Of a DNA stretch of 64,000 bases, positions 1,200 to 35,478 are shown one piece after another. Every line of letters begins with the position of its first letter. The stretch's first letter is position 1. A model generated the notes under the pieces. That model did no database searches. It was not told where the DNA came from and saw only the letters and a program-made list of their open reading frames with translations. The stretch comes from [Clostridium] celerecrescens 18A (lineage in GTDB: Bacteria > Bacillota > Clostridia > Lachnospirales > Lachnospiraceae), in the NCBI RefSeq assembly GCF_002797975.1, contig NZ_PGET01000001.1, positions 3,286,001 to 3,350,000 on the forward strand, written 5' to 3'. The position numbers and the translations under genes are program-made.

Positions 1200-4100
1200 C
1201 TATGGGGTTTCCGGTGTCCATTTCCCGCTTTCATCCACATAATATCCATCCGGGGTCACTTCAGCCCGGTACAGGGAACCCAGCGGACGTTCTGACTGAC
1301 CGGCATAAGCCCATTTCCCGGTTGCTTTATCCAGATACCATGTCTGCTGACTGTTTTCCTGTGTCAGGTAATACCATGCGCCGTCTATTTTCTGCCAGCC
1401 GGTAAGCATAGCACCGTTAAACAGATTTAAGTAGTACCATCTTCCATCATTATCATCAAGATGCCAGCCGGTCTTAAGGCGTCCGAACCAACCATCGTGA
1501 ACGGTGGTTAAGAAATACCATTTCCCTTCTTCATCTAAAAACCATCCGCTGTCCATTACCCCTTCCTGGTCAAAATGGTATGTATAGATCAGGGTGGTCC
1601 CATTATAGGTATATCTGATATTTGCCCACTGGTCTTTTAATTTTGTTCCGCTGCTTAATAGGAAGGACCAGCCATTGGCTGCCGGATTAAAATTCTCCCA
1701 GTGACCGTCAACATCATTTGTATAAGTCTTATAACTTCCAAAACGGTAAGCACCCGGTCCCACGCTACTGCTGGAACTGCTCATTCCGGAACTGCTGCCT
1801 CCTCCAGAACCGCTTCCGCCTCCGGATCCATTTCCGCCTCCGGATCCATTTCCGCCTCCGGATCCATTTCCGCCTCCAGAGCCATTGTCTCCTCCGGAAC
1901 CATTGTTTCCACCAGAGCCATTGTCTCCTCCGGAGCCATTGCCATTTCTGATTCCGTCAACAATATCCTTTAATGTCTGATAAGCCTGATCCAGCTCATC
2001 AATCGTGGGACGGGGCAGAGTATCACGCACTACAATTGCATCATGGATTGCATCGGTCAATGTATTTCTGTCTTCTTCACTTACCGAACCATTGTTTTTC
2101 AAAGCATTAGCTGTATTGATTTCATCCTCCAGCCGGTTCTTTGCCTCCTGCCACAAGGAATCATCCTCCTGTTCATACACTGCGTACAGTTGGAGATTTT
2201 TGTTAATCGGAGCCGTTATATCATAAAAACCTGCGGTAGCCAAAGGCTGTTTTTTTAATCCTGTAAATTCATATACAATACCGGTAACCGGATCCGTGTA
2301 GTCTTCCAAGCATTCAAGATCCATATATCCGTCTGTATCTTCTAAAGTACTTCCGGCTCTTGCTTTAAGACTTGCCACCGAACCTCTTATCGTATCGGTA
2401 ACGGTAACCGTATATGATTTGGAATAAGTTAAGATAATCGTGTCCCCAACATTTGCATCAAATAAGAATGTACCGGTAAAACCGGCATCCGGATCATTCA
2501 GATCAGGTTCCAAAGGCATAATCTCCGTACATACCGGATCGCTATCCGCATTTTCAACCTTCCACAACTGGTAATCCATATTTCCCAGAAGGCTGGTATC
2601 CAGGGTACCATAAACCTGAATATCAGGTGTGTGGTTCCCATCGGAGGGCAGTGCTTTATTAATGCCATCCACCTTTCTCGACAATGAGATTCCTAAAACC
2701 CAGGGGATCTTTAATGCTTCACTATCCACTGCAGCAGCATCTCTCACTGCATTGGACTCCGTAGCAGTCGGTACATTTCTCCGGTCAAATTTAACCGTAT
2801 ATTCCACTTTATGCCCTGATGTCAGCAAACCTGGATCGGAAGAATTGTCAATCAGGTCGAGTTTTAACGCTTCCAACAGATCCGTTTGCATATTGAGAGC
2901 AAACGTTCCATTTTTAGGGGAATAATCTACCGTTGCATTGGATGAGGTCGCCGTGGCTGGTACGGACTCATACCGTGCCTGAAGAACTACGTCGCCGGCC
3001 GGCATAATAACCCATGGATTCTGCTGTTCTGCCTGAGATGCAGTAAGAGACATAGAGCCAATCAGGCAATCCCACCGCTTAAAACTGTACCCGGTTATAT
3101 CAGGGGCTTTAATCCTTATCTTATCCCCTTCCCGGACACTGACCTGGGTTGCTCCTTCTTCAATCTCCAAGGGTACGTTATTTCTGGTAACCTCCGCCAC
3201 ATAGCCTCCGTTTGTGATATACAGAGTATAAGTCTGATTTTGCACCAGAGAGGATTCTTCCAGGAAAATGGGATTTCCCAGCAATATCTTTTCAGACGGA
3301 GACTCTGTTTCTCCCAAATGCTTTGCAACTACCGTATATTCCCGGCCGGATTCCAGACCTGGGAATTCTGCAAAAGCCGGATTTCCTGCGGCTTCTAACC
3401 AGCCGTCTGCTGATCCTTCCTGTGAAACGGCATTTCCATTACCATCAAGCAGCGCATACAGCGTATCCGCCGCTGTTGGACTGATCCTGATTTTCTTTCT
3501 GCCTTCATTTCCATCATTTGCTATGGCATAGTTATTTGCAAGAGTGACAATGCCTACCCTTGCAGGCTGGCTTATCAGGGAGCCATCCACATGACCGGTC
3601 AGTGGTTCCCCTGTTACAGGTGCCGCAGTCAATGATAGTTCATACACATAATAATAGGTACAGGGATTGAGCCCTGTAAATTTCCCGCTCTGCAACTGGG
3701 AACCTGTCATGGTGGATATGACGATTCCGTCTGCATCCGCAACTGCATACTTTCTCTCTTCGTTAGCACCATTGATTCTGATCTGTCCGGTTCCATCTGC
3801 TGATACAGAACCATCTGCATCAGGAATGCTTAAAATCCCGTCATCACCTGCCATTAGCGTGAACCTGGCCGTATAGCTGTGATTGGAAAGAATCTGCAGA
3901 TCATTTTGTACCTGGTTTCCATTCTCATCATACCAGCCTGCAAACATATAATTGTCATCTGGCTGAAGCGAGGGAAGCGCCAGATCTGTCCATATCGTTC
4001 CTCTTGCTACATGGGCCGAAGTGGCTCCTGAAACAATACTTCCATGGCTTCCGGATACAAAGTTTAAATCAAACCACTCATTGGGGTCCTCTTCAAAATT

Positions 4101-5711
4101 GGCATATAGCTTTAGGTTCCCGGTTATCTCCACATCCCCGGTAAGCTTTGCACCGGTTTTTCCTGTTCCGTTTGCGTTTGCTTTATACCATCCGTCAAAT
4201 AAATAATGTGTCGCCGCCGACGGAGTGATGCTCTGAGTCAATTCATCAATTGTATAGGTATCCAGCCTGAAAAACCTGGGAGAGGGATCTCCCGACAGAT
4301 TTCCGTTCGCACCATTATAATAATCAATACGGGCCCAGTAGTTAGGATCCGTCAAATCCTCGTTATAGGTAATGGTAACAGAACCTCCGACAATGTCCGT
4401 ATTAAAGGTCAGCTTTTCGCTTGCCTCATCCAGAACGGAGTTGGAGAAATTACCGTTCCACGTGATATTCGGCGGATAAGAATATCCTGATTTTCTTTCT
4501 ATATCCAGATCTACAAGTTCAGTCGGGGATACGGACAAATTCTGCTGTTGTTCAAGAATGTTGTTATGATTGTCCACCGTGTTTACAATAATATGGGTCG
4601 TATAAGACGGATCAATCTGATACCTATAGGTGATTACCACCATTTGATTGGGCATCTTTCCTGTATAATTCTTATCTGCATCAAAGCTGCAGCCAGCCGA
4701 AGCCGCCGAATAGATTCCTCTGTTTACTAAATCATCTGTATCTCCAAATCCGGCCTTCAGTTCTGCACCGGTAAGTTCATATGCCGTTATAGCAGCAGGT
4801 GCAACAGAGAAGGCTGTTTCTGCAGAGTAAGCATATGCATCCGGTGTTTTTATAGCAGTACCGTCTCCATCAACGTACTCTACCCGCAATGTAAATTTTT
4901 TGCTGGTATCCGGTTCATAACGATAGGCAACCGTAAGATCATCGTTAGGCATGTATCCCCGGATCGCGTTGGTAGAAGTGTTGATAGCAGCGGCCGCTTC
5001 CAATGTTCCGGCCCCGCTCGCATCGTCAAATCTTCTGATCTTGTTATTTTTTATCAGCACTGATTTCAGCTTATACCCCGGTATGTTCCTTTTATAGGTG
5101 GCTGAAACCGGTGTATTGGCCGTCACTGGATTCGTCCAGGTTCCGTCATCATAAAACCGGATCATCTGGCTATCGTCGTCTGATGGCCATGCGGATTGGC
5201 TGGTACCGTCAGTTATGCTGTCTCTTGCCGAATTTAAATCACGGTAATGCATGACCGTGAAATCAAACTGGCTGCTGCTGTTGCCATTCCAAACCGCCTT
5301 ATAGGTTTCCGGTGACTCATAGGGGAAAGCATAAGGCAGGTTAAGAACCTTATTTCCATTTTCGTTATACCAGCCGTCAAAGGTATAGCCCGGCCACTCA
5401 ACCTGGAATTCCGGAAGCTTGGGCCTTGGTCCGGAGCCTTTGTCCTCTGTTTCAATGCCGCTAAAATCTCCAGATGAACTTAGGGCAAATCCTGCCTGTC
5501 CCGTGGCATAGGAAATGTTATTTTCATATCTTGGTACATTCGCATATGTAGAATGCGACAGATTCGGTCCCTTCTGCGGATCAAATTGAACGACAGAAGG
5601 ATCGCCGTATCCTAGCGTTGCTGCAGATGCGGGCGGTGCCGCCATGGTAATAACCATGGCGGCTGCCAGTATCAATGCAGTCTGCGCTTTCCATTTCTTC
5701 ATGTTTTTCAT
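1200..5711 (-). CDS. 1503-aa secreted multi-domain adhesin with InlB/MucBP-like repeats and cell-wall-binding C-terminus
   Basis: Start chosen at MKNMKKWK (5711) because AAGGAGGAAAC sits just upstream; the longer frame from 5762 overlaps the preceding gene and lacks a ribosome-binding site. Residues 1-31 are a signal peptide (LILAAAMVITMAAPPASA). The body carries repeated InlB-B/Listeria-Bacteroides-type units (FDGWYNENGNKV, FDGWYKANANG, FAGWYDENGNQV) and MucBP-like beta domains (VEYVDGDGTAIKTPDAYAYS). A helical FIVAR-like stretch follows (LWQEAKNRLEDEINTANALK), then a Gly-Ser-Asn linker, then choline-binding-type repeats (GWFLDEEGKWYFL, GWQKIDGAWYYL). There is no LPXTG motif, so anchoring is probably non-covalent through the W/Y/G repeats. 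It starts 10 bases after the stop of the 2080-aa adhesin and is surely co-transcribed. Likely an adhesin; ligand unknown. Confidence 0.88.
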   Translation of the reverse strand: MKNMKKWKAQTALILAAAMVITMAAPPASAATLGYGDPSVVQFDPQKGPNLSHSTYANVPRYENNISYATGQAGFALSSSGDFSGIETEDKGSGPRPKLPEFQVEWPGYTFDGWYNENGNKVLNLPYAFPYESPETYKAVWNGNSSSQFDFTVMHYRDLNSARDSITDGTSQSAWPSDDDSQMIRFYDDGTWTNPVTANTPVSATYKRNIPGYKLKSVLIKNNKIRRFDDASGAGTLEAAAAINTSTNAIRGYMPNDDLTVAYRYEPDTSKKFTLRVEYVDGDGTAIKTPDAYAYSAETAFSVAPAAITAYELTGAELKAGFGDTDDLVNRGIYSAASAGCSFDADKNYTGKMPNQMVVITYRYQIDPSYTTHIIVNTVDNHNNILEQQQNLSVSPTELVDLDIERKSGYSYPPNITWNGNFSNSVLDEASEKLTFNTDIVGGSVTITYNEDLTDPNYWARIDYYNGANGNLSGDPSPRFFRLDTYTIDELTQSITPSAATHYLFDGWYKANANGTGKTGAKLTGDVEITGNLKLYANFEEDPNEWFDLNFVSGSHGSIVSGATSAHVARGTIWTDLALPSLQPDDNYMFAGWYDENGNQVQNDLQILSNHSYTARFTLMAGDDGILSIPDADGSVSADGTGQIRINGANEERKYAVADADGIVISTMTGSQLQSGKFTGLNPCTYYYVYELSLTAAPVTGEPLTGHVDGSLISQPARVGIVTLANNYAIANDGNEGRKKIRISPTAADTLYALLDGNGNAVSQEGSADGWLEAAGNPAFAEFPGLESGREYTVVAKHLGETESPSEKILLGNPIFLEESSLVQNQTYTLYITNGGYVAEVTRNNVPLEIEEGATQVSVREGDKIRIKAPDITGYSFKRWDCLIGSMSLTASQAEQQNPWVIMPAGDVVLQARYESVPATATSSNATVDYSPKNGTFALNMQTDLLEALKLDLIDNSSDPGLLTSGHKVEYTVKFDRRNVPTATESNAVRDAAAVDSEALKIPWVLGISLSRKVDGINKALPSDGNHTPDIQVYGTLDTSLLGNMDYQLWKVENADSDPVCTEIMPLEPDLNDPDAGFTGTFLFDANVGDTIILTYSKSYTVTVTDTIRGSVASLKARAGSTLEDTDGYMDLECLEDYTDPVTGIVYEFTGLKKQPLATAGFYDITAPINKNLQLYAVYEQEDDSLWQEAKNRLEDEINTANALKNNGSVSEEDRNTLTDAIHDAIVVRDTLPRPTIDELDQAYQTLKDIVDGIRNGNGSGGDNGSGGNNGSGGDNGSGGGNGSGGGNGSGGGNGSGGGSGSGGGSSSGMSSSSSSVGPGAYRFGSYKTYTNDVDGHWENFNPAANGWSFLLSSGTKLKDQWANIRYTYNGTTLIYTYHFDQEGVMDSGWFLDEEGKWYFLTTVHDGWFGRLKTGWHLDDNDGRWYYLNLFNGAMLTGWQKIDGAWYYLTQENSQQTWYLDKATGKWAYAGQSERPLGSLYRAEVTPDGYYVDESGKWTPETP
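1795..1950 (-). repeat. In-frame tandem repeat encoding a Gly-Ser-Asn linker
   Basis: About eight 18-base units encode GNGSGG/DNGSGG in the 1503-aa adhesin. Three consecutive copies of the unit starting ggatccatttccgcctcc are identical. It joins the helical module to the cell-wall-binding repeats. Identical units can change number by slippage without breaking the frame. Confidence 0.85.
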
Positions 5712-5721
5712 TGTTTCCTCC

Positions 5722-8700
5722 TTACTGCAGCCAGGCTCCATCTCCCCCAACGGCATATCCATCAGGCGTCATCTCACTGGCATACATGGATCCCAGTGGC
5801 CGTTCTTTATTGCTCTTATAGATCCATTTCTCCGTTGCCGCATCATACCGATAGGTTTCCATACTGTTCTGCTCTGTAAAGTAATACCACTTTCCTCCGA
5901 TATTCCTCCAGCCCTTTGCCATCATTCCTGTCTCAGGGTCTAAATAATACCAGCGGTTGTCTTCCTTATCATGATGCCAGCCCGTCTTCATCTTTCCAAG
6001 CCAGCCGTCTGATTCTGTATTGCAGTAATACCAGTCATGCTTCTCATCACGGAACCAGCCGTAATCCATGATCCCGCTGGCATTGAAATGATACCAGCCG
6101 TTCTTGTTCACGTCTCCGTTTGCATAATCCAACTTCGCCCACATTCCTGTCAGACGGATTCCTCCGTTTAGCACAAAGGCCCACTGGCTTCCCTTTCCTG
6201 AAAGCTCTTCCCAGTTTCCATTGGTTCCCACGATGTAGCTCTTGCTCCTGCTGGGATTGTAAGGGTTGGCTTTGATTCCGCTTCCGGTTCCTCCTCCGCC
6301 TTTGCTTCCTCCCTTGCTTCCCGAGCTCTGGATCTTATCATAGTGGTCATAACGCTCATCCAGTACTTCATCTAACGGCTTTGTCACTTCTTTCAGCTTT
6401 TCCAGCGCTTCAAGCAGTTCATCAAGGGTCGCCTTCGGAGAAGTACGGTCCAGTATCTCCAGGGCCTCTTCGATTGCTTCCTTAAGCTTCTCTGTCTCCT
6501 TTAATGTCAGGAAATAGTCATCGCTCTTATCAATCGCGTTCTTTATGGCATCCTCCAGCTCTTTCCTGGCATCAGTTACTTCCTTCTGATTGTTCTCGTA
6601 GTAGGCATAGACATAGGTTTTCCGGCTGATCTCCCGGTCCGGATCGAACTCACTTAAGCGGTCCTCCCGATAACTCCAGCCTACATAGCTGTACTCTACG
6701 CCTTCTTCACTGATGAAAATATCTGCCGGTTCTTCCACCTGGCCATACTCATAGGAATAATACCAGTCACTGGGAGCCTCTCCCTTTCTTACCTTGAAGT
6801 AATACTGGTACCTCGGAAGGGCTGTCTGGTTTAAGAAGTAGAGCCGGTATGCCCTGGAATACACCATCACATACCTCATTCCTGCCTGGGCCGTAAAGGT
6901 AAACAGCCCTCCGGTCTCTTCCGGATCATCTGACATCTCCACAAGCTCCGCCTGGACCGAACCGTCAAACGGGTCCGTAAAAATCCGGTACAGCTGGTAG
7001 TCCATCATGTCCACATCATCCTTACCTAACTGGATATAGGTGACGAATTCTGCATCCGATGGCGTGGCCATGGCCGTCTTTCTTCCATTGACATATCGTT
7101 CAATGTCTACATTCAGTCCCCAGGCTGCTTTAAACGCCTGGCTGTGGTCGCTGTCATACTCCGGCGAGGCCTTTACTGCATTGGATTCCGTGGCCTTTGC
7201 TGCATTCTTCGTATATACCACCTTATAGGTTACATCTGCATGGTTCTGATCCATCAGGATCCGGTCTGCTTCGGTCGTCAGCTCCTCCTCCAGTTCCGGT
7301 ATCTCTCCCGGATCAAGGGCGATTTCATTCTCACTTCCTCCACGGATCTCATCAACCACCGTTGCATTGCTCGGACTGGCAACCGGACGGGTATAATAAG
7401 CCGTAAACACCAGATTGGTATCCGGCATATCAAAGGCAAGCTCTCTCTCATACAGCTTTCCGGTAAGGCCTGGCACTGATCCTATGGTGATCTTCCAGTA
7501 CAGGAACGTCTCTCCTGCTCCATTGGTCTCTTCTGCTGTAATTACCACACGGTCTCCCTTATGGGCTTCCTCATATCTGGCTGCGTCAATCGCTTCCTGA
7601 TCAACACTTACCACACGGCCTTCCAGGGTCTCCACGATGTAGTTGGGGATCTCCAATGCTCCCCCTGGGTCCGTAGTGATCACTGATCCGTCCGGCATCC
7701 GGCTTTCTGCCGTGATTTCGGTCTCTCCCTTTGGTCTGGCTACCACGATGTACTCCTCGTTGTAATTCAGCCCGGAAAAAGTCACACTTCCCGGATTTCC
7801 TGTCACGGCCTGCCAGCCGTCACTTCCGGTCTCCGTGGTAACGATGACCGTTCCCTCCTTACTTAAGACCGCATAATCCGACTTCTTATCGGCAGGCTTG
7901 ATCACAAGCACTGTTTTTCCTTCGTGGTTCTCATCAAATAAGATCTGGTAGTTGGTCTCCACCACAGGGGTCAGTACCTCCACCGGGTCACTGATGTTCC
8001 CTTCAGTATCTCCGATCTGGTTCCCCACGATTGCATGCACATTTCCTGCTGCCTCATACACAAGGTACCTGGCTCCCGGGTAGAGTCCGTCAAAATATAC
8101 CCGGCCTGCAATGGTTCCCGTCTGCACTCCCACGATGTTTCCTTCCAGGTCGGTTATGATGTACTGGTAGCCTGCCGTGGTGTGGTAAACGGTGATCTTT
8201 CCCTTTCCTTCCCCGTTAAGTCCGGTGGAAGCATCGGGAGCTGCCACATCCGTTCCGAATACTGCCGGATCCTGATAGAAACGTATGGTATAGGTATGTC
8301 CGTTCTTTAATACATCAGCTGCTTCCACATCCAAGTCCCCGTCATACCAGCCATCCACCAGATAGTTGATCTCCGGCACATAGCCCGGTATCTGGCCTGC
8401 GATGTCCCCCCAGGTCCTGTCATACTGGATATGCAGGGAGGTAATGCTTCCGTCTGCCAGAGAACCGTGTTCTCCTGCTGCAAACTGGATGTCGATCCAT
8501 TTCTCCGGGTCCTCTTCAAACAGGGCCGTAACAGTCGCATCTCCGGTAAAACGGTGATCTTCTGTCAGAAGCTGCTCTCCGCCATTCAATGTCCCGTTTC
8601 CATCCTGGTCAATAAACCAACCAGCAAACCGGTAATACTGGTCCGCCTGTGTCATGGGAACCAGGCGTTTTTCCTTTACCGTACTCCAGGTATAACTGTC

Positions 8701-11700
8701 GGTCTGACCTGCTGCAGAACCATCGTTTTTCAGAATGGACGTCTCATAGACCCCGGTTCCGCTCCCCTGTTCCTGTACATCAGAAGACACTCCGCTTCCA
8801 TGGGAAATGGCGCCATTGATTCCTGATTTGTAAGTAATCCGGGCCCACTGGGACATGACACGGTCATATCGGTAGCTAACGGTTAAGTCATCACTTGGCA
8901 TGGTTCCCGTATAATTACGGCTGCCATCAAAGCTTCCGCTGGAAGACGGTACCGCCGCAGCACTTGCATAGCTATAACCGTATAAATCCCTGTACTCCGC
9001 GCTGACCGCTGTATCCGCTGTTTTCTGCTGGATCTCTGGGTTTATGATATTTTTTAAACTGCTGTCACTGGTATCATTATCTAAAAAGTTTACGGCAAAT
9101 GTATACCCTTCCCCTGTTGCCTCATATACATATGTAATTTCTACCGGCTGGTTCGGCATGAAGCCCATAAAACCACCGCTGCTTCCAAAGCTTCCCTGGA
9201 CTGCACTGACCAGATTCCCATCCGAATCATCCGCAGTATCTCCGGCTGTTATGCTTCCTGATACAAACTGATATCCGTATATATCCAGCGGACTTGTGCT
9301 TATGGCATCCTCCGGGTAATACGGCGTTACACCAGGCGCATGGATCACGGTTCCGTTCCCCGTCACATAGCGCACCGTCAGATCCGATCTGGCCGCCGGA
9401 TTATTCCAGTCTACCTTGTATGCGTATTTCACAGCCGCATCCTGTCCCGGCATCCTTCCGGCAAATTCCCCGGTCGAGCCGTTAAAGGTTCCGATCGGTG
9501 CTGCTCCCAGTCCGTCATAGTTATATTCAGCGGGGCTGGTCAGGGAATCCGAAAGACTCCACAAATATCCATGGATGTTCTTTTTCTGGGACTGGATCAC
9601 CGACTCCACAGAATAGGTATTTGCCGTGGTCGTCGACTGGAACACGATGGAGCCGTTCTGATTGGTGTAATCCACCGTATAATCAAACTTCACATTAGAG
9701 TCCGGCTCCCATATGGCATAATAGGTAACTGGATCTTCTGGATATACAGCCGGCAGAGAGGAGATATATTCCGGACTCGTCTGACTATTCACTTTGCTCC
9801 AGCCCTTAAACACGTATCCGTACCTGCTTACACTGGGAAGCAGGGCATTTACGCTGTTTCCGGCCGTTCCGGTCAGGGTTTGCGGCTGAGGTGTACCTCC
9901 GTTGACTACAAAGGCAATGGAGGCATCGATACGGGTGTATTCATAGGTAACTACCACATCCTGCCCCGGCATAGTCCCGGTTATTTTTCCAAAATCTGTC
10001 CCTTCTGTTTCCACCGCAGTTAAGGTACCGCCGGTCCCCTGGTCAATGGAAGTTCCGGTAAACTCATACCCGGAAATAGCCGATGGCGGCGAAATCACCA
10101 CCCCATCTCCTGATGCGAAGGACAGGCTGGGGGTATCCGGTGCACCGGTCACGGTTCCTCCTGTGGCAGTATCCCGGTACGCAAAGCTTACGATATATCC
10201 GTTACGCTTTAAGACCGTATTCCGCGAATTGTTTAAAGCTGAGGAGCCAACTGCGGTATAAATCCCTGTTCCGTTTCCTGTATCCTTATCTGCAAAGAAG
10301 TTGTCTGCAAACGGACAAGAGGTAATACTTGCAGAATAATCGGCTGAAGGTACAGCGATGACAATTTCCTGTCCCATCTCTGTTGAATCTCCGACCGAAG
10401 CCTCAGGTATCTGCTGTGCAGTCACGCCGATCTGTGAGGCATCCAGATCTCCATTTACAGTAATCTGCTTTCCCTGTGCAAGATAAACATTGTTTTTTTC
10501 TCCGGAGGAATTCACATTATCCTCAATCGTCACCAGATTTTTTACAGAAAAGCTACCGTTACTATCAAAGTAAACAGTTCCCTTACCATTGGAAATGTTA
10601 TTTTTTACTGTTCCATAATTCATTGACAGATTTGCCGTTCCCGTTATCTCTACCGCACTTCCTGATCCGACTGAAGTTCCATTGCAATTTTTCACAACTG
10701 CTCCGCTATTGATCTCAACTGTTCCGGAGGCTGCAGATATGACCGGCGAGGAAGTCTCTACGCCATTTCCGTCAAGGATGATATCTGTCAATTTTAATGT
10801 CCCGCTTGAAACATTAAAAACGGAGCCTGTATAGGAATCTGCCCGTTTTAAGGTCTTAATATAATCAGAATTTTCATTTGTAGGATTTCCGGAATGATCA
10901 AAATCCGTACTTGCTATCGTAATATCCTTTGAAGAAGACCCGGATATTGCTATTGGGGCTGTTATATCCGGATAATCCATCACATAGATGTATCCCTTTT
11001 TATTTCCAATCTTATTTAAAGCATATTCAATGGTTTTATATGGACTGGTGTATGTCCCTTCTGCCGAACTGCTGTCACTTCCATATAAATCTGATACATA
11101 GTAGGATGTATCTCTGATTGCAAAGGCTACACGCTTATGTACCATCTCATATGGATGCAGCTGAAAATGCCAAGAATAAGCCATTCCTGAATCAATTCCG
11201 CTTACCGAATCTCCTCCACCTTCGTTGAATACGTTGCCTCCCCATGAACTATAATGGCCTATCCATCTGGTGGTCGGCGGTGTAACACCGAGATTACTGT
11301 CGTTTGTGATACAGTCAAATGTTGTCTTTGTATATTGGTTCACCATATGAAAGCCGCGGTTATTTTTGTATACCGTAGCATAATCGTCTGACGAGCCACC
11401 GCTTCCGCCTCCGATCATTACATCAGTACCTGTTCCCAATTTAACAGTCCTGCCATTGATTCCACCCTGTCCGTTTTTGTCATAAATGTAATAGTCTACA
11501 AATACATATTTGTCATCCGGACTTGGTGAAACCGCAATTTTAAATTCCACTCCCATACTGGCCAAATCTTCCACAGCACCGTTGGTGCCCCCATTTGCCT
11601 TATATGTGGTGCCGCCAGCAACCTGAAGGTAGGTTGCATACCCTTGCCAGCTAAAGGTTGTTTGAATTCCACTTGTGCTATATTCTGTCTGTCCTGCTTG

Positions 11701-11964
11701 TAAACCGCACAAGTCAAAGCGGTATGAGTTCCCCCCGGATTCGCCCGTTCCGCTTCTCGGCCCTATCCATTTATATGCAGTTGCCTCGCTTGCCCCGTTC
11801 CCAAGATCTTCATTTGTTAATTCTGAAGAAGCATACGCGATCACGCTCATTCCAGGCAATAACTGGCCTCCTATGATACAAACCGACAGAACCATCGCAA
11901 AAAAGCGTTTCCATAATTGATACCATCTTTTTGATATTCCTGCTTTTTTACTTTTTGTAGTCAT
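5722..11964 (-). CDS. 2080-aa secreted adhesin: beta-helix, InlB/MucBP-like repeats, FIVAR-like helices, cell-wall-binding repeats
   Basis: The ATG at 11964 (MTTKSKKAG) lies 9 bases after GGAG and is preferred to a TTG two codons earlier. A signal peptide covers about residues 1-48. Residues 50-290 match the N-terminal region of the partial paralogue at 1-977. Residues about 300-520 look like a right-handed beta-helix (YTSPYKTIEYALNKIG, then short repeated turns such as GTLKLTDIILDGNGV). About 590-1250 carry repeated MucBP/InlB-like modules (VFKGWSKVNSQT, FAGWFIDQDGNG). A lysine/glutamate-rich FIVAR-like helical segment (ARKELEDAIKNAIDK) precedes a GGSKGGGG linker and W/Y/G choline-binding-type repeats (GWFRDEKHDWYY, GWRNIGGKWYYF). 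Second gene of the cluster, 18 bases after the 550-aa protein. Probably binds the wall through its C-terminus; ligand unknown. Expression is likely controlled by the invertible segment upstream (inference). Confidence 0.88.
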   Translation of the reverse strand: MTTKSKKAGISKRWYQLWKRFFAMVLSVCIIGGQLLPGMSVIAYASSELTNEDLGNGASEATAYKWIGPRSGTGESGGNSYRFDLCGLQAGQTEYSTSGIQTTFSWQGYATYLQVAGGTTYKANGGTNGAVEDLASMGVEFKIAVSPSPDDKYVFVDYYIYDKNGQGGINGRTVKLGTGTDVMIGGGSGGSSDDYATVYKNNRGFHMVNQYTKTTFDCITNDSNLGVTPPTTRWIGHYSSWGGNVFNEGGGDSVSGIDSGMAYSWHFQLHPYEMVHKRVAFAIRDTSYYVSDLYGSDSSSAEGTYTSPYKTIEYALNKIGNKKGYIYVMDYPDITAPIAISGSSSKDITIASTDFDHSGNPTNENSDYIKTLKRADSYTGSVFNVSSGTLKLTDIILDGNGVETSSPVISAASGTVEINSGAVVKNCNGTSVGSGSAVEITGTANLSMNYGTVKNNISNGKGTVYFDSNGSFSVKNLVTIEDNVNSSGEKNNVYLAQGKQITVNGDLDASQIGVTAQQIPEASVGDSTEMGQEIVIAVPSADYSASITSCPFADNFFADKDTGNGTGIYTAVGSSALNNSRNTVLKRNGYIVSFAYRDTATGGTVTGAPDTPSLSFASGDGVVISPPSAISGYEFTGTSIDQGTGGTLTAVETEGTDFGKITGTMPGQDVVVTYEYTRIDASIAFVVNGGTPQPQTLTGTAGNSVNALLPSVSRYGYVFKGWSKVNSQTSPEYISSLPAVYPEDPVTYYAIWEPDSNVKFDYTVDYTNQNGSIVFQSTTTANTYSVESVIQSQKKNIHGYLWSLSDSLTSPAEYNYDGLGAAPIGTFNGSTGEFAGRMPGQDAAVKYAYKVDWNNPAARSDLTVRYVTGNGTVIHAPGVTPYYPEDAISTSPLDIYGYQFVSGSITAGDTADDSDGNLVSAVQGSFGSSGGFMGFMPNQPVEITYVYEATGEGYTFAVNFLDNDTSDSSLKNIINPEIQQKTADTAVSAEYRDLYGYSYASAAAVPSSSGSFDGSRNYTGTMPSDDLTVSYRYDRVMSQWARITYKSGINGAISHGSGVSSDVQEQGSGTGVYETSILKNDGSAAGQTDSYTWSTVKEKRLVPMTQADQYYRFAGWFIDQDGNGTLNGGEQLLTEDHRFTGDATVTALFEEDPEKWIDIQFAAGEHGSLADGSITSLHIQYDRTWGDIAGQIPGYVPEINYLVDGWYDGDLDVEAADVLKNGHTYTIRFYQDPAVFGTDVAAPDASTGLNGEGKGKITVYHTTAGYQYIITDLEGNIVGVQTGTIAGRVYFDGLYPGARYLVYEAAGNVHAIVGNQIGDTEGNISDPVEVLTPVVETNYQILFDENHEGKTVLVIKPADKKSDYAVLSKEGTVIVTTETGSDGWQAVTGNPGSVTFSGLNYNEEYIVVARPKGETEITAESRMPDGSVITTDPGGALEIPNYIVETLEGRVVSVDQEAIDAARYEEAHKGDRVVITAEETNGAGETFLYWKITIGSVPGLTGKLYERELAFDMPDTNLVFTAYYTRPVASPSNATVVDEIRGGSENEIALDPGEIPELEEELTTEADRILMDQNHADVTYKVVYTKNAAKATESNAVKASPEYDSDHSQAFKAAWGLNVDIERYVNGRKTAMATPSDAEFVTYIQLGKDDVDMMDYQLYRIFTDPFDGSVQAELVEMSDDPEETGGLFTFTAQAGMRYVMVYSRAYRLYFLNQTALPRYQYYFKVRKGEAPSDWYYSYEYGQVEEPADIFISEEGVEYSYVGWSYREDRLSEFDPDREISRKTYVYAYYENNQKEVTDARKELEDAIKNAIDKSDDYFLTLKETEKLKEAIEEALEILDRTSPKATLDELLEALEKLKEVTKPLDEVLDERYDHYDKIQSSGSKGGSKGGGGTGSGIKANPYNPSRSKSYIVGTNGNWEELSGKGSQWAFVLNGGIRLTGMWAKLDYANGDVNKNGWYHFNASGIMDYGWFRDEKHDWYYCNTESDGWLGKMKTGWHHDKEDNRWYYLDPETGMMAKGWRNIGGKWYYFTEQNSMETYRYDAATEKWIYKSNKERPLGSMYASEMTPDGYAVGGDGAWLQ

Positions 11965-11982
11965 ATTCAATTTCTCCTCTGA

Positions 11983-13635
11983 TTAGAAATTAAGCCTTTC
12001 TTCCGGAGGCAGTTCATCTGTGGAAGGCTCTGTATCATAACCTGCAATCAGACCTCCTTCATATGGATTCTCTTTGTTATCTTTATCATAATGATAGAAA
12101 CCGATTCCATCAGTTCCAGTTCGCCATCTGGGCTTTTCATCATCTCCCACCCATGCTGCAAATCTGTCGTTTATAATAAGGAGATATCCTCCCTCTTTAT
12201 CCTTTACTGCCTTTTTATCACCTTTTACAATCTTTCCGTTAATATCTACCACCTGGTAATACGTCTCATCGTTCTTCCGAACCTCTACTACACCATAGCC
12301 ATATTCTTCATCTGCCTCCAGCCTAATTCCATTGATGTAGTATCTGTTATCATTTTTCTGAAGCTGGTTCCGGTTCCCATAGGCCTTTCCGTTTCCGGAA
12401 AATCCAAATGTAAAGACACCATCTTCCAGTTCCACTTTGATCTCCTTTCCCATCTGCATGGAACCGTCATTTAATTCGTCCGGCGCAAACAAATACAGAT
12501 CGGATTTTTCAATTCCATATAATGAGCCATCTATAAAATCCTCTGAACTCCAGTCGTCCACATCGTACTGGGCTACAAACTCCGATTTTCCATCGAACAA
12601 TACAAAGCCCGTCTTCATCCTTCCGATTCCGTCAAAGGCATAATTTTTTCCGCTGATGTTACGGATCCTGTTCCGGTAGACTTCCCCTTTTTCATCCGTG
12701 TGCCACCAGCTGCATTCCTGATCAGAATAATCCGTTTCATCCAGATTTTCCGACGGGTACATCCAGAACCACATGTTTTTCAGAAGCTTGCCTCCATCAT
12801 ATGCGGAATAGAATCTCGCAGATGTGGAGCTGGTAGGATTGCTTTTATCCGCATTGCTAATGGTTGCTACCTTGCCCCACCATGGGTTCATAATTCCATT
12901 TTCATCAAATCCATAAGCATTTCCGCCAATATTCTTCTGCTTTAAATTCTCTCCTTTGCTGTAAACCTTTTTGGAGCTTTCATCAAAATAGATCCACATT
13001 TTTTCATAATCCGAATAATAGCGGTCGGTCATGTTGCTAAGCAGTTCAGAACCACCGGTCCCATAGCCGATTTCACCATAATCCAGCCATTTTTCTGTAA
13101 ACAGAACCCCATCTTCTCCAGAGTAATAAACCCCTTCTACAAACGGATCATCCGAATCATTAATGGAATTTCCATTTTCATCAATCCATCCGGTTAACAT
13201 AAGTCCATCTTCATTAAAAAGATAGGTATTTCCATTAATCTTCTTTTTGAAACTGTTGCCCTTTCTTTGATACGCCTTGCCATCAGTTCCAAAATAGTAC
13301 CAGCCTTCTTCAAAATCACCTTCCGGATCTTTGGTTTCATCAATCCAGATCCATGTGTTTTGAACCATCTTTCCATCTTCATCCACGAAATAACTGGTGT
13401 TTCCCAGATGGAACATACAATTCTTAAGAATCGTTCCTTCCGATGATAAGTAATACCAACTGTCCTTTGATTTTTTCCAGACATTTGTCACCGGCTGATC
13501 ATCCGAACCAAGGTATGACCATTCGTCATTCTCGAGCTTCCAGCCTTCGGCAGCATAGACATCTTCATGGAAAGATGACGTTAAAAAGCCCACCGAAAGT
13601 GCAAAGATCGTTAGCACACATAATCTCTTTTTCAT
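11983..13635 (-). CDS. Secreted cell-wall-binding repeat protein (550 aa)
   Basis: First gene of the adhesin cluster. It has a short signal peptide (MKKRLCVLTIFALSVGFLTSSF), then almost the whole protein is a string of choline-binding-type repeats with the W-Y-Y/F-G pattern: WSYLGSDDQPVTNVWKKS, DSWYYLSSEGTILKN, NTYLFNEDGLMLTGW, KNYAFDGIGRMKTGF. No enzyme domain is visible. The ATG at 13635 has AGGAAGG about 12 bases upstream, a rather long spacing. Its repeats resemble the C-terminal anchors of the two downstream adhesins and of the amidase at 33849-34676, so all may dock on the same wall polymer (inference). It may act as a surface coat or accessory of the adhesins; the true role is unknown. 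Confidence 0.85.
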   Translation of the reverse strand: MKKRLCVLTIFALSVGFLTSSFHEDVYAAEGWKLENDEWSYLGSDDQPVTNVWKKSKDSWYYLSSEGTILKNCMFHLGNTSYFVDEDGKMVQNTWIWIDETKDPEGDFEEGWYYFGTDGKAYQRKGNSFKKKINGNTYLFNEDGLMLTGWIDENGNSINDSDDPFVEGVYYSGEDGVLFTEKWLDYGEIGYGTGGSELLSNMTDRYYSDYEKMWIYFDESSKKVYSKGENLKQKNIGGNAYGFDENGIMNPWWGKVATISNADKSNPTSSTSARFYSAYDGGKLLKNMWFWMYPSENLDETDYSDQECSWWHTDEKGEVYRNRIRNISGKNYAFDGIGRMKTGFVLFDGKSEFVAQYDVDDWSSEDFIDGSLYGIEKSDLYLFAPDELNDGSMQMGKEIKVELEDGVFTFGFSGNGKAYGNRNQLQKNDNRYYINGIRLEADEEYGYGVVEVRKNDETYYQVVDINGKIVKGDKKAVKDKEGGYLLIINDRFAAWVGDDEKPRWRTGTDGIGFYHYDKDNKENPYEGGLIAGYDTEPSTDELPPEERLNF

Positions 13636-13734
13636 TCCTCATCACTACCTTCCTTTCTCTTAAGTTACATCTTCATGGAGTTATTTCCGCCATAGGGGAA
13701 ATTGGCACTCAACATGTATACCTTTTTGCAAAAT

Positions 13735-13758
13735 ACAACAGAATTCCTCTTTTGTTGT
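13735..13758 (+). repeat. Left inverted recombination site (IRL) of a putative invertible segment
   Basis: Structure 9+6+9: arm ACAACAGAA, spacer TTCCTC, arm TTTTGTTGT, whose reverse complement ACAACAAAA matches the first arm at 8 of 9. Bases 13738-13758 are the exact reverse complement of 13963-13983, and the full 24-base sites differ at one position. Inverted arms around a 6-base asymmetric spacer are the known form of tyrosine-recombinase crossover sites. Confidence 0.85.
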
Positions 13759-13760
13759 TT

Positions 13761-13805
13761 AAAAAAAAGAAAAACCGGGTTTGATATAACGCTCCGGTTT
13801 TTCTT
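13761..13805 (-). terminator. Terminator inside the invertible segment, facing the adhesin genes
   Basis: On the minus strand AAGAAAAACCGG pairs perfectly with CCGGTTTTTCTT (12 bp, 15-base loop) and is followed by six T. In the sequenced orientation it ends transcripts coming from the recombinase side before they reach the adhesins. Confidence 0.7.
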
Positions 13806-13909
13806 ATCTAAATATAAACACTTTAAAAGGCCGGTTTTACAAAAATTATGCAAACCAGCTTCTTTGTTGTACCTGAATTTCAAAAAAAGGAGATTTTGAA
13901 GAAAAATAG

Positions 13910-13938
13910 TGGATTTTATTTCCTTTATGTAGTAGAAT
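13910..13938 (+). promoter_or_regulatory. Candidate sigma-A promoter inside the invertible segment
   Basis: TGGATT, 17 bases, TAGAAT (-10 matches 5 of 6, -35 only 3 of 6). A second TAGAAT lies at 13951-13956. As sequenced it points into the 3' end of the recombinase gene (antisense); after inversion it would drive the adhesin cluster. Confidence 0.4.
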
Positions 13939-13960
13939 ATTTTAAGATACTAGAATGCTT

Positions 13961-14851
13961 TTACAACAAAAGAGGAATTCTGTCGTCAATTTCAACCAGC
14001 AATTTCAGACTTTCCAGCTGCCTTATATGGTTATAGCCGCTTTCTATCGTGTAAATACGTGTCGTATTAACGCTGCTATGTCCTAATATATCTGCAAGCC
14101 TGGACAAATCCTTCTCTGAATCATAGTAAGATCTGGCAAATAAATGTCGTAAATTATGGGGATAAATTTTTTCCTGTGCGACGCCCGCTTCTACGCCCAA
14201 TGCTTTCATTTCTCTCCAGATATTACTTCTGTCCAATGCAGCTCCATTCCTTGTTATAAAAATCATACCTCCTTCTAAATGTCTTTTTTGTGCATACAAT
14301 ATTAACATCTGAGATAACTGTCTTGTAAGGAACACAGTTCTCACCTTCCCCTTACAATCCACTTCCGCCCGTCCTCTGACTGCGGCTTCTACCGTAATAA
14401 AAGGTAACTCCGATACCCTGATTCCAGTTGAACAGATCGTCTGCAGCAATAAAGCCAATCTTATATTACCTTTTTCAAAAGCAGTTTTTACCAATCTCCT
14501 ATACTCATCCTTTGACAACTCCTTGTTTTCTGAACAAAAAGTATTGCGGCTGATTTTAAGAAATTTCACTTTACAATCCTCCCAACTGCAATAATTAAAA
14601 AAACCATTAAGCGCAGCCAGAGCCCCATTAACTGTCACAGGAGCCATCTTTTCGCGCATAACACCCTTCCACATTATCACAATTTCTTTATTAGCAGATC
14701 TTCCATTGAGATAGTGCATGAATAAGCTGAGATTATATCGGTAACTCCGAATTGTTTCTTTGCTTTTTTCACAACCGTGCAACCACGCACAATATTCATC
14801 GATCAGCGTATCTGTAACGATTCTCGCTTTACACTTACAGACTTTATCCAT
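13961..14851 (-). CDS. Tyrosine site-specific recombinase (probable DNA invertase of the adhesin switch)
   Basis: 296 aa, about the length of XerC/D and fim-type recombinases. An N-terminal SAM-like core-binding domain (about residues 12-95) precedes the catalytic domain. All catalytic residues are visible: R145 (TGIRVSEL), K169, H232-x-x-R235 (HNLRHLFA), H258 (LGHSSVNTT) and nucleophile Y267. Start supported by GGAGGACAAT before the ATG. No phage genes, tRNA or other integrase partners are nearby, which argues against a prophage. Its gene ends inside one of two inverted repeats that bound a 204-bp segment upstream of the adhesins, so its substrate is probably that segment. After inversion the frame would read past the present stop and add FKKKKNRV. 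A Xer-like housekeeping role is less likely because of this context. Confidence 0.9.
   Translation of the reverse strand: MDKVCKCKARIVTDTLIDEYCAWLHGCEKSKETIRSYRYNLSLFMHYLNGRSANKEIVIMWKGVMREKMAPVTVNGALAALNGFFNYCSWEDCKVKFLKISRNTFCSENKELSKDEYRRLVKTAFEKGNIRLALLLQTICSTGIRVSELPFITVEAAVRGRAEVDCKGKVRTVFLTRQLSQMLILYAQKRHLEGGMIFITRNGAALDRSNIWREMKALGVEAGVAQEKIYPHNLRHLFARSYYDSEKDLSRLADILGHSSVNTTRIYTIESGYNHIRQLESLKLLVEIDDRIPLLL
13963..13986 (+). repeat. Right inverted recombination site (IRR), inside the recombinase 3' end
   Basis: Arm ACAACAAAA, spacer GAGGAA, arm TTCTGTCGT; reverse complement of the left site with one mismatch. It overlaps the last codons and the first base of the stop codon of the recombinase gene, so a crossover here rewrites the end of that frame. 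Confidence 0.85.
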
Positions 14852-14916
14852 ATTGTCCTCCTATTATGCAGTACCATATATTCAAATACGAATCGTTCCC
14901 AATTCAGGGATAAAAT

Positions 14917-14945
14917 ATTCTACATTCAGGGAAAGTTAAAATAAA
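14917..14945 (-). promoter_or_regulatory. Candidate promoter of the recombinase gene with flanking direct repeats
   Basis: Minus strand TTTATT, 17 bases, TAGAAT. The -10 is flanked by two CCCTGAAT direct repeats (14902-14909 and 14924-14931) 22 bp apart, about two helical turns, which could be an operator. The 13-mer GTAGAATATTTTA containing this -10 also occurs at 13932-13944 in the invertible segment. Confidence 0.35.
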
Positions 14946-14947
14946 AA

Positions 14948-14985
14948 ACAGAAATCCTCTTGAGAATAAATAAGAAGATTTCTGT
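14948..14985 (-). terminator. Hairpin terminator between hemW and the recombinase gene
   Basis: Minus strand ACAGAAATCTTCTT pairs with AAGAGGATTTCTGT (14 bp, one mismatch) and is followed by TTTTTATTTT. It probably ends the lepA-hemW transcript about 250 bases after the hemW stop. The AT-rich remainder of 14986-15233 shows no gene. Confidence 0.55.
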
Positions 14986-15233
14986 CTGGCATTGAAAAGA
15001 AAAACTATCAACTTTCCGTGCTGTCATTTTTTTAACGAAGCTTCTTCGAACTAAATGATTCTATTTATCGTATAATAATGTCGGACATAAAACCCAAAAT
15101 TTCTCTTCTTATCTTCGACTATTATTCTACTGAAACGTAAAACAAACTAGTTGTATAATGTAATTAATATTAGGTTAATTGTATTAAATAATGTTAAAAA
15201 TTACCATTTTTCATTATCGCTTACGGATTATGC

Positions 15234-16457
15234 TCATTTTAAAAACCGGCTCATAACATAATTACTGATGTCGATTCCTCTGGAAGTCAGACGATAACAG
15301 CCATCTTTAAACTCCATAAGCCCTTCCTCTTCCATTGCATCTAACACCATACCGTAAACGCTCCGGATGTTGTGGCCAAAGTTGCTGACAAACCCTTGGG
15401 CTGAGACACCTTTCATGAGACGCAGCCCCAGAAACATGTATTCTTCCATCTTTTCCTCTATCGTCAGCTGCTCAAACTCCTGCCTCAACACTCTCTGAAA
15501 TGCTTCTTCCTGATCCAGACTGGCTCTGCAATACTCATCGAGTGCAGGAGTATTATGAAAACGGCATCCATTCAAATAAGAGGCAGCCCCCAGACCTAAG
15601 CCCAAATACTCTACTCCAGTCCAATAGCCGATGTTATGCCTGCATTCGTATCCGTTTTTGGAATAATTGGATATTTCATACCTTTCATATCCTTGTTCGT
15701 TTAGAAATTCCTGGGTGAGGTAATACATTTCACGCTCTGTATCCTCATCCGGCAAATTCGGCAGGGACATAAGTCTATTACGTTCTTCCAGGGTCAGGGA
15801 GTGGTTTTCCATGTTTTCCATGTTTCCTTGCTCCCCATACCGATCAAAATAAGGTGTCCCCTTTTCCACGATCAGGCTATAAGCAGATATATGCTCCGGT
15901 TTCAGCATTGTCACCTTTTTTAAGGTATTCTTCCATGATTCCAATGTCTGCCCTGGAATTGCTGAAATCAAATCCACATTTACGTTGTCAAATCCGGCCA
16001 TACGAACTCTTTGATAGCTTTTCAGGAATTCATCATAGGTATGAATTCTGCCTAAATAGCGCAGCTCTTTGTCATCTGCAGACTGAAGCCCCATACTGAT
16101 CCGGTTTACCCCTGCTTCTCTGTAACAGGAAAGCGCCTCGGCCGTCACCGTACCAGGATTTACCTCCATCGTGATCTCTGCACCAGGAAGAATCTCAAAC
16201 GCTTCCCTGAGAGAATGAAGAACTGCAGCCATGTCCCCTATACCCAATATAGAAGGAGTGCCTCCCCCTATGAATACACTGATCACCTGGTATTCTTTGA
16301 CTTTGGCACTCTGGAATTTGATCTCTTCTATTAACTTTTCTGTATATTCCCGCTGCATCTGCTGGTTACCGGGAAAAGATAGGAAATCACAGTATGCGCA
16401 TTTACGCACGCAGAACGGGATATGCACATAAATCTCAAGATTCTTTTTATTCATCAT
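15234..16457 (-). CDS. hemW: HemW, radical SAM haem chaperone (formerly called HemN-like coproporphyrinogen III oxidase)
   Basis: The 407-aa protein has the radical SAM motif C16-x3-C20-x2-C23 ([12 protein letters not shown]) binding a 4Fe-4S cluster and SAM. The position after the third Cys is DF, lacking the fourth Cys (CxC) typical of true HemN. GGGTPS follows at about residue 65, and the C-terminal HemN_C domain ends with a winged-helix-like segment. HemW family proteins bind haem and pass it to acceptor proteins rather than oxidise coproporphyrinogen. The gene overlaps the 3' end of lepA (ATGATGAATAA), so translation is coupled; lepA-hemW linkage is common in Firmicutes. Confidence 0.92.
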
Positions 16458-35420: not shown

Positions 35421-35478
35421 AAGAAAGGAGTGCTGCTTCCATAGACTACAATACCTATGGAAGGGGCACTCCTTTCTT
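35421..35478. terminator. Large bidirectional terminator hairpin
   Basis: AAGAAAGGAGTGC pairs with GCACTCCTTTCTT and an inner CTTCCATAG with CTATGGAAG. T-rich on both strands. Lies between the convergent DUF6774-like gene and the AI-2E family permease gene. Confidence 0.8.

Follow-up and report, generated by a model that had tools for sequence, protein, structure and literature searches.

Inverton group 139, as far as PMC11892184 is available in excerpt, comprises 33 invertons, 32 of them from Clostridia, and its link to a tyrosine-type recombinase group (invertase group 35) is the most significant link given there. Orientation shifts were observed in reads for this group, and in Intestinimonas mucin carriers and supernatant differed in orientation (PMC11892184). 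In Escherichia coli, the invertible element fimS is associated with two tyrosine recombinases, FimB and FimE, one of which prefers the ON-to-OFF direction; fimE is located directly 5' of fimS, and the orientation of the element affects fimE mRNA via a Rho-dependent terminator (excerpt of PMC5386303). A 195-bp invertible element controls the large cell-wall protein encoded by C. difficile cwpV, with RecV as the tyrosine recombinase. Since cwpV is expressed by approximately 5% of cells, OFF prevails (excerpts of PMC2784873 and PMC5386303). In L. plantarum, inversion occurs upstream of the msa-marR adhesin operon, and the flipped form was found where aggregation was selected (excerpt of PMC8493755).

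The locus described here lies in a 64,000-nucleotide stretch of the [Clostridium] celerecrescens 18A genome (the window), in which inverted repeats enclose a short segment between a tyrosine recombinase gene and three surface-protein genes (Table 1). Like group 139, it combines inverted repeats with a tyrosine-type recombinase within 5 kb in a Clostridia host, and the group 139 example from Clostridium sp. D5, whose name gives coordinates that correspond to 26-base repeats separated by 205 bp, is much like it; the likeness concerns layout and host. A site that overlaps the recombinase gene, an excess of predicted OFF orientations, and an antisense layout were found here and are not part of the description of group 139 in the excerpt of PMC11892184. 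As with fimS, the element adjoins a tyrosine recombinase gene, whereas the fim arrangement of two recombinases, one biased from ON to OFF, was not found in the window, which has one adjacent recombinase. Also unlike fim, as excerpted in PMC5386303, the coding end of this recombinase is part of a site and the hairpin is of intrinsic type. The locus resembles cwpV in a short, here putative, invertible element, a large surface protein, a tyrosine recombinase, and a prevalence of OFF, here predicted; in contrast, the excerpts of PMC2784873 and PMC5386303 place the cwpV promoter outside the element, give a terminator model, and state that RecV also flips other switches, for example a flagellar one. 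The position of the segment upstream of an adhesin-type operon resembles msa-marR, for which the excerpt of PMC8493755 names no dedicated adjacent recombinase and ascribes the effect to a stem-loop. Our main reading, to which we assign a probability of roughly 0.85, is that the locus is a self-contained phase-variation cassette, in which the recombinase would invert a 204-bp promoter segment upstream of the surface-protein genes.

Table 1. Features of the putative invertible cassette (positions are those of the window).
Feature	Position	Strand	Remarks
Left (cargo-side) crossover site	13735-13758	+	Sequence ACAACAGAATTCCTCTTTTGTTGT
Right (recombinase-side) crossover site	13963-13986	-	Overlaps 3' end of recombinase gene
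Segment predicted to invert	13759-13962		204 bp; based on the sites and on an orthologous reversal in relatives
Promoter-like element TGGATT-17-TAGAAT	13910-13938	+	Now faces the recombinase (predicted OFF)
Terminator-like hairpin with T-run	13767-13805	both	Repeat scan and survey of terminator-like hairpins
Second, central hairpin	13830-13859		Sequence and fold; not called a terminator
Tyrosine recombinase gene	13961-14851	-	296 aa; intact; domain matches in text
First cargo gene	11983-13635	-	550-aa protein with choline-binding repeats (profile matches)
Second cargo gene	5722-11970	-	~2080-aa protein with choline-binding and InlB-type repeats
Third cargo gene	1200-5762	-	1520-aa protein with choline-binding and InlB-type repeats

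Two inverted 24-base sites with one mismatch, a 21-base core, and 204 bp between them had been reported in a first-pass annotation of the window, and their positions and identity were confirmed. The right site equals the reverse complement of the left site at 23 of 24 positions, with a perfect core at 13738-13758 and 13963-13983. This pair was the top-scoring inverted repeat (within 1 kb) of the window, with a score of 21, as compared to best scores of 12 to 15 in ten dinucleotide-preserving shuffles. When up to three mismatches were allowed, the site occurred in the 5.27 Mb genome at only these two places, and a backwards control pattern gave zero matches in the whole genome under the same tolerance. 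The description of this DNA as non-coding did not hold for the right site, which covers the last codons of the recombinase gene and the first base of its TAA stop. The proposed 9/6/9 form of the sites can be read by hand, with imperfect half-site symmetry (8/9 in the left and 7/9 in the right site). The left site does lie, as annotated, 100 bp upstream of three surface-protein genes, the first of which has its start codon at 13635. A search of positions 13500-15300 against Rfam yielded no known RNA, its three matches (E up to 0.5) all being under the gathering score. The second-best inverted repeat of the window (35421-35478; 22/24, short loop) resembles an ordinary hairpin, perhaps a terminator.

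The adjoining recombinase gene, annotated as complete, is indeed full length. Its product matched Phage_integrase (2.7e-25) and an N-terminal SAM-like domain (7.5e-5), the best-matching solved structures were XerC-like, XerA, and XerD enzymes, and it fell under every cut-off among the 11 NCBIfam families listed. The Arg, His, Arg, His, and Tyr columns, which together with a Lys column we take to be catalytic, were retained in 146, 146, 145, 146, and 145 of 146 aligned sequences, respectively; the Lys column held Lys in 132 and Arg in 14. The window protein has all of these residues. Five more, distant relatives of the recombinase were detected in the same genome (E up to 0.001), the nearest approximately 278 kb away or more and with at most 31% identity. 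By linkage, the adjoining enzyme is the one expected to act on the two sites, and we infer its catalytic activity from the retained residues. Elsewhere in this genome (C1:3576076-3579442), a second choline-binding-type gene, whose product is 36% identical to the first cargo protein, is divergent from two tandem tyrosine recombinase genes. Its surroundings contain no long inverted repeat (best 13 bp), and similar neighbors occur in other genomes of the genus.

Relatives of the recombinase were surveyed in the window, 79 contig loci (the best 80 of 105 confirmed stretches), and loci or stretches of other genomes. Among the matches listed, 194 recombinase hits reduced to 146 distinct relatives upon removal of exact duplicates over 400 bp only; near-identical pairs (L044/L046, L079/L080) were thus retained and the counts are not phylogenetically independent. 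An inverted pair was found within 600 bp of the recombinase stop in 118 of these 146. Fifteen of the 28 relatives without a pair had less than 300 bp of downstream sequence, so that 13 of the 131 with at least 300 bp lacked one. Two of these 13 keep one recognizable site (L049, L068), a third has an inverted pair approximately 1 kb further on (L038), and a fourth is a distant relative of the recombinase (33%; L102). Segment length was 161-375 bp in 116 of the 118 loci. Three pairs (L115, L178, L193) are possibly due to chance, and one locus with a 78-bp gap (L081) was dropped before the counts on 117 segments given below. In two loci (L075, L182) the recombinase is followed by three core sites rather than two, which might allow nested inversions. 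Clostridium sp. Marseille-P2415 has two recombinase copies approximately 7.4 kb apart with identical invertible segments (L016/L018, also L097/L112), and the stretch that separates the copies contains a partial recombinase match.

Spacers were compared in the 65 loci with exactly two sites of the core pattern ACATAA-N6-TTATGT; eighteen further loci with one or three core sites were left out of this count. In 64 of the 65, both sites carried an identical six-base spacer in inverted orientation. The exception was a pair 37 bp apart in a locus with 71 bp of available sequence (L132). Fifty-four different spacers were observed, and sites of different loci agreed in 0.6% of comparisons. Spacers that are the same within and different between loci are what strand exchange by a dedicated recombinase would leave.

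Consistent with a promoter inside the segment, the word TGTAGTA occurs near one segment end in most of the 24 close loci (at least 57% identity). It points toward the recombinase in 21, points toward the cargo in one (L023), and is absent from two (L009, L012). In the window it overlaps the promoter-like element. The block around it is the same in genomes G020 and G019, nearly the same in G007, and partly retained, without the exact word, in G011. A sigma-A-type score exceeding the 99% shuffle level was reached at the recombinase end of 42 of the 117 segments and at the cargo end of eight; no segment had such a score at both ends, and 67 had it at neither. Five of the eight cargo-end cases are clear (L189, L188, L055, L190, L042) and three are doubtful, with recombinase-end scores of 9.1 to 9.4 (L015, L056, L161); one of the latter, L015, also carries TGTAGTA pointing at the recombinase. 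The element in the window, at 6.4 against a 99% shuffle level of 10.4, belongs to the 67. A simple consensus scan of the region found seven promoter-like sites as compared to 5.9 expected, which is no excess; it did not list this element, and did list a minus-strand site at 13966-13939 that points toward the cargo with the hairpins in between. The segment thus appears to contain a conserved promoter-like element that is weak by consensus in the window.

Terminator-like hairpins were found on the two strands in 70 and 59 of the 117 segments, respectively, as compared to approximately 2.7 in shuffles. The window segment has one on each strand, as do 46 of the 117. A stricter consensus scan listed no terminator in the window segment. 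Such a hairpin, together with recombinase transcripts that could run toward the cargo, would also fit a terminator-type switch as in C. difficile cwpV, in which a promoter outside the segment is combined with a leader terminator that inversion forms or disrupts. We regard this alternative as improbable: a conserved promoter-like element appears to be located within the segment and at one end only, the consensus scan listed no minus-strand promoter-like site between the left site and the cargo, and a hairpin present on both strands would not be removed by flipping.

The first-pass annotation had proposed a search of related genomes for both orientations, and the opposite orientation was found in an orthologous pair of loci, from [Clostridium] clostridioforme AGR2157 (L023) and Clostridium sp. 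1001271st1 H5 (L024). Their recombinase genes are 86% identical, the 600 bp past the far site are 74% identical, and the flanks are collinear. The segments were 37% identical as is and 67% identical with one of them flipped, the maximum in 20 shuffles being 39%. L023 is also the one reversed locus among the 22 close loci that carry the promoter word, and the five clear cases of a cargo-facing promoter score add to the evidence for both orientations among relatives. Segments of another pair, L031 and L042, were 31% identical as is and 52% flipped; as their downstream stretches are unrelated (36%), this is a weaker reversal pair. Overall, segment-to-segment matching gave 87 pairs on the same strand and 13 on opposite strands. 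Eight of the latter (nine by list) also match on the same strand, of which seven are short and palindrome-like (56-67 bp) and the eighth is L023/L024. Pairs that match on the opposite strand only were L020/L023 (two copies in one genome, 42 bp), L023/L100 (71 bp), L031/L042 (155 bp), and L043/L130 (55 bp).

As to the four most closely related genomes that carry this cargo, the window segment is collinear with those of G020 (98% identity as is, 34% flipped) and G007 (75% as is, 38% flipped), and G019 has the same orientation; hence no flipped example was found in the clade of the window where orientation could be judged. With the promoter-like element facing the recombinase, the window is predicted to be in the OFF position, a point that, like the terminator-like hairpin and the overlap with the recombinase gene, goes beyond the first-pass annotation. 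The shared orientation of these four genomes could also reflect a once-active switch that is now locked OFF. A precedent may exist in Lacrimispora xylanisolvens ASCUSBR21 (L019/L098), possibly a locked switch, where the repeats are kept and the recombinase frame is broken by two internal stops. For the window clade we consider locking improbable, too: its recombinase is full length with the catalytic residues present, the 21-base core is perfect in four species despite a 25% segment difference between the window and G007, and a consensus assembly displays the major orientation only. Inversion of the segment in strain 18A itself is what we infer from these comparisons.

It is very unlikely that the inverted repeat never recombines and serves solely as a structure in mRNA or for protein binding. 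The strong fold-back of the strand (z -8.0) would fit such a role; this fold is expected from the inverted repeats alone and was therefore not counted as evidence, and a purely structural role leaves unexplained both the spacer pattern and the reversed segment at L023/L024. A mobile element, with the recombinase as its integrase and the repeats as its attachment sites, is hardly credible even though integrases are common among tyrosine recombinases and one site overlaps the gene end, since the sites are inverted, not direct, in all testable loci except L132, segment length is narrowly distributed, and the genome contains no further site.

The three-gene cluster downstream of the far site was found in the window and in G020, G019, G007, and G011. 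These are the five of 25 genus genomes that encode orthologues (at least 70% identity) of the 550-aa protein; 13 more encode only homologues with 32-37% identity, and seven encode none (E 1e-50). Loss of the repeat or the recombinase in genomes that keep the adhesins, named in the first-pass annotation as an argument against its interpretation, was not seen: all five genomes keep both. A scan of 20 cargo proteins from 16 other loci revealed a choline-binding-repeat protein (L017), a Tad/Flp pilus set (L010), Cna_B domains (L020 and L198, the latter also with VWA), InlB-type repeats (L189), camelysin-like proteins (L055), Big_2 domains (L073, L200), a glycine-rich-domain protein (L069), and a polysaccharide-synthesis protein (L163), as well as a histidine kinase (L042), a Band-7 protein (L031), and a helicase-associated-domain protein (L188). 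Five of the 20 had no match (two in L024 and one each in L055, L045, and L194). In a set of 96 loci, from which L115 and loci with less than 1.5 kb of downstream sequence were left out, the first downstream ORF runs in the driven direction in 89. A hydrophobic N-terminus, scored by a crude hydrophobicity rule for signal peptides, was found among the first three downstream ORFs in 83 of the 96, as compared to 26 of 49 upstream controls. A two-way switch that also drives the gene beyond the recombinase was not favored, because the upstream neighbor shares the strand of the recombinase in 44 of 65 loci and lies on the other strand in 21.

The invertible-promoter reading of the first-pass annotation is thus supported by the linked recombinase with its catalytic residues, the locus-specific spacers, the conserved promoter-like element, the L023/L024 reversal, and cargo that lies in the direction of a flipped promoter. 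By this comparative evidence, the locus appears to be a genuine invertible-promoter cassette with good support, and thus a switch of a known kind. The repeats, the recombinase, the conserved promoter-like and terminator-like elements, and one orthologous reversal in relatives can be read from sequence. In the proposed mechanism, the recombinase would act on both inverted sites, with strand exchange within the identical asymmetric spacers, and would thereby invert the 204-bp segment, as its anatomy and its relatives suggest. Close to one of its ends the segment would carry a single promoter that points outward, and its body would contain a terminator. In the ON orientation, this putative promoter would read across the cargo-side site into the three surface-protein genes, whose control by the switch is presumed. 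In the OFF orientation, which the window presumably displays, it would read across the recombinase-side site and enter the recombinase gene at its 3' end in antisense direction, and recombinase transcripts would be stopped by the terminator before the cargo.

This layout raises the speculative idea, rather doubtful in our judgment, that the switch feeds back on its recombinase through antisense transcription in OFF and through two C-terminal forms of the enzyme. An antisense transcript through the recombinase gene would keep the enzyme low in OFF, which would make OFF stable; in ON, the antisense effect would be lifted, the recombinase would rise, and the cell would be driven to return to OFF; this would account for the excess of OFF orientations across species. 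A site overlaps the recombinase frame in 43 loci, where flipping would leave the protein unchanged in 30 and change it in 13. In the window, G020, and G019, flipping would convert LLL-stop to LLLFKKKKNRV-stop, and in G007 to LLLYKRKKSRV-stop. The predicted tail in these four species thus adds eight residues, five of them basic, and the two forms that ON and OFF cells would make may differ in flipping bias. Conservation of the tail codons is no proof of selection at the protein level, since the terminator stem is formed by the same codons. An argument against antisense control is that 39 of 117 loci have a terminator-like hairpin within the last 300 bp of the gene, where an antisense transcript would pass; this count was made without shuffle control. 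Among the matches listed for a few wordings in the open-licence PMC literature, none dealt with this locus, with a crossover site that forms the last codons of a recombinase, or with control of an invertase by antisense transcription out of its own segment. A right site that serves as the last codons of the recombinase, the predicted antisense transcription in OFF, and the predicted addition of eight residues by flipping in four species are possibly new features.

These results point to a widespread family of switches in Clostridia, with dedicated recombinases and cargo of various kinds, in large part surface structures. They also provide a simple test by which candidate phase-variable genes can be recognized from sequence, and the site within the recombinase gene, together with the antisense layout, offers a testable idea for why OFF may predominate in sequenced relatives.
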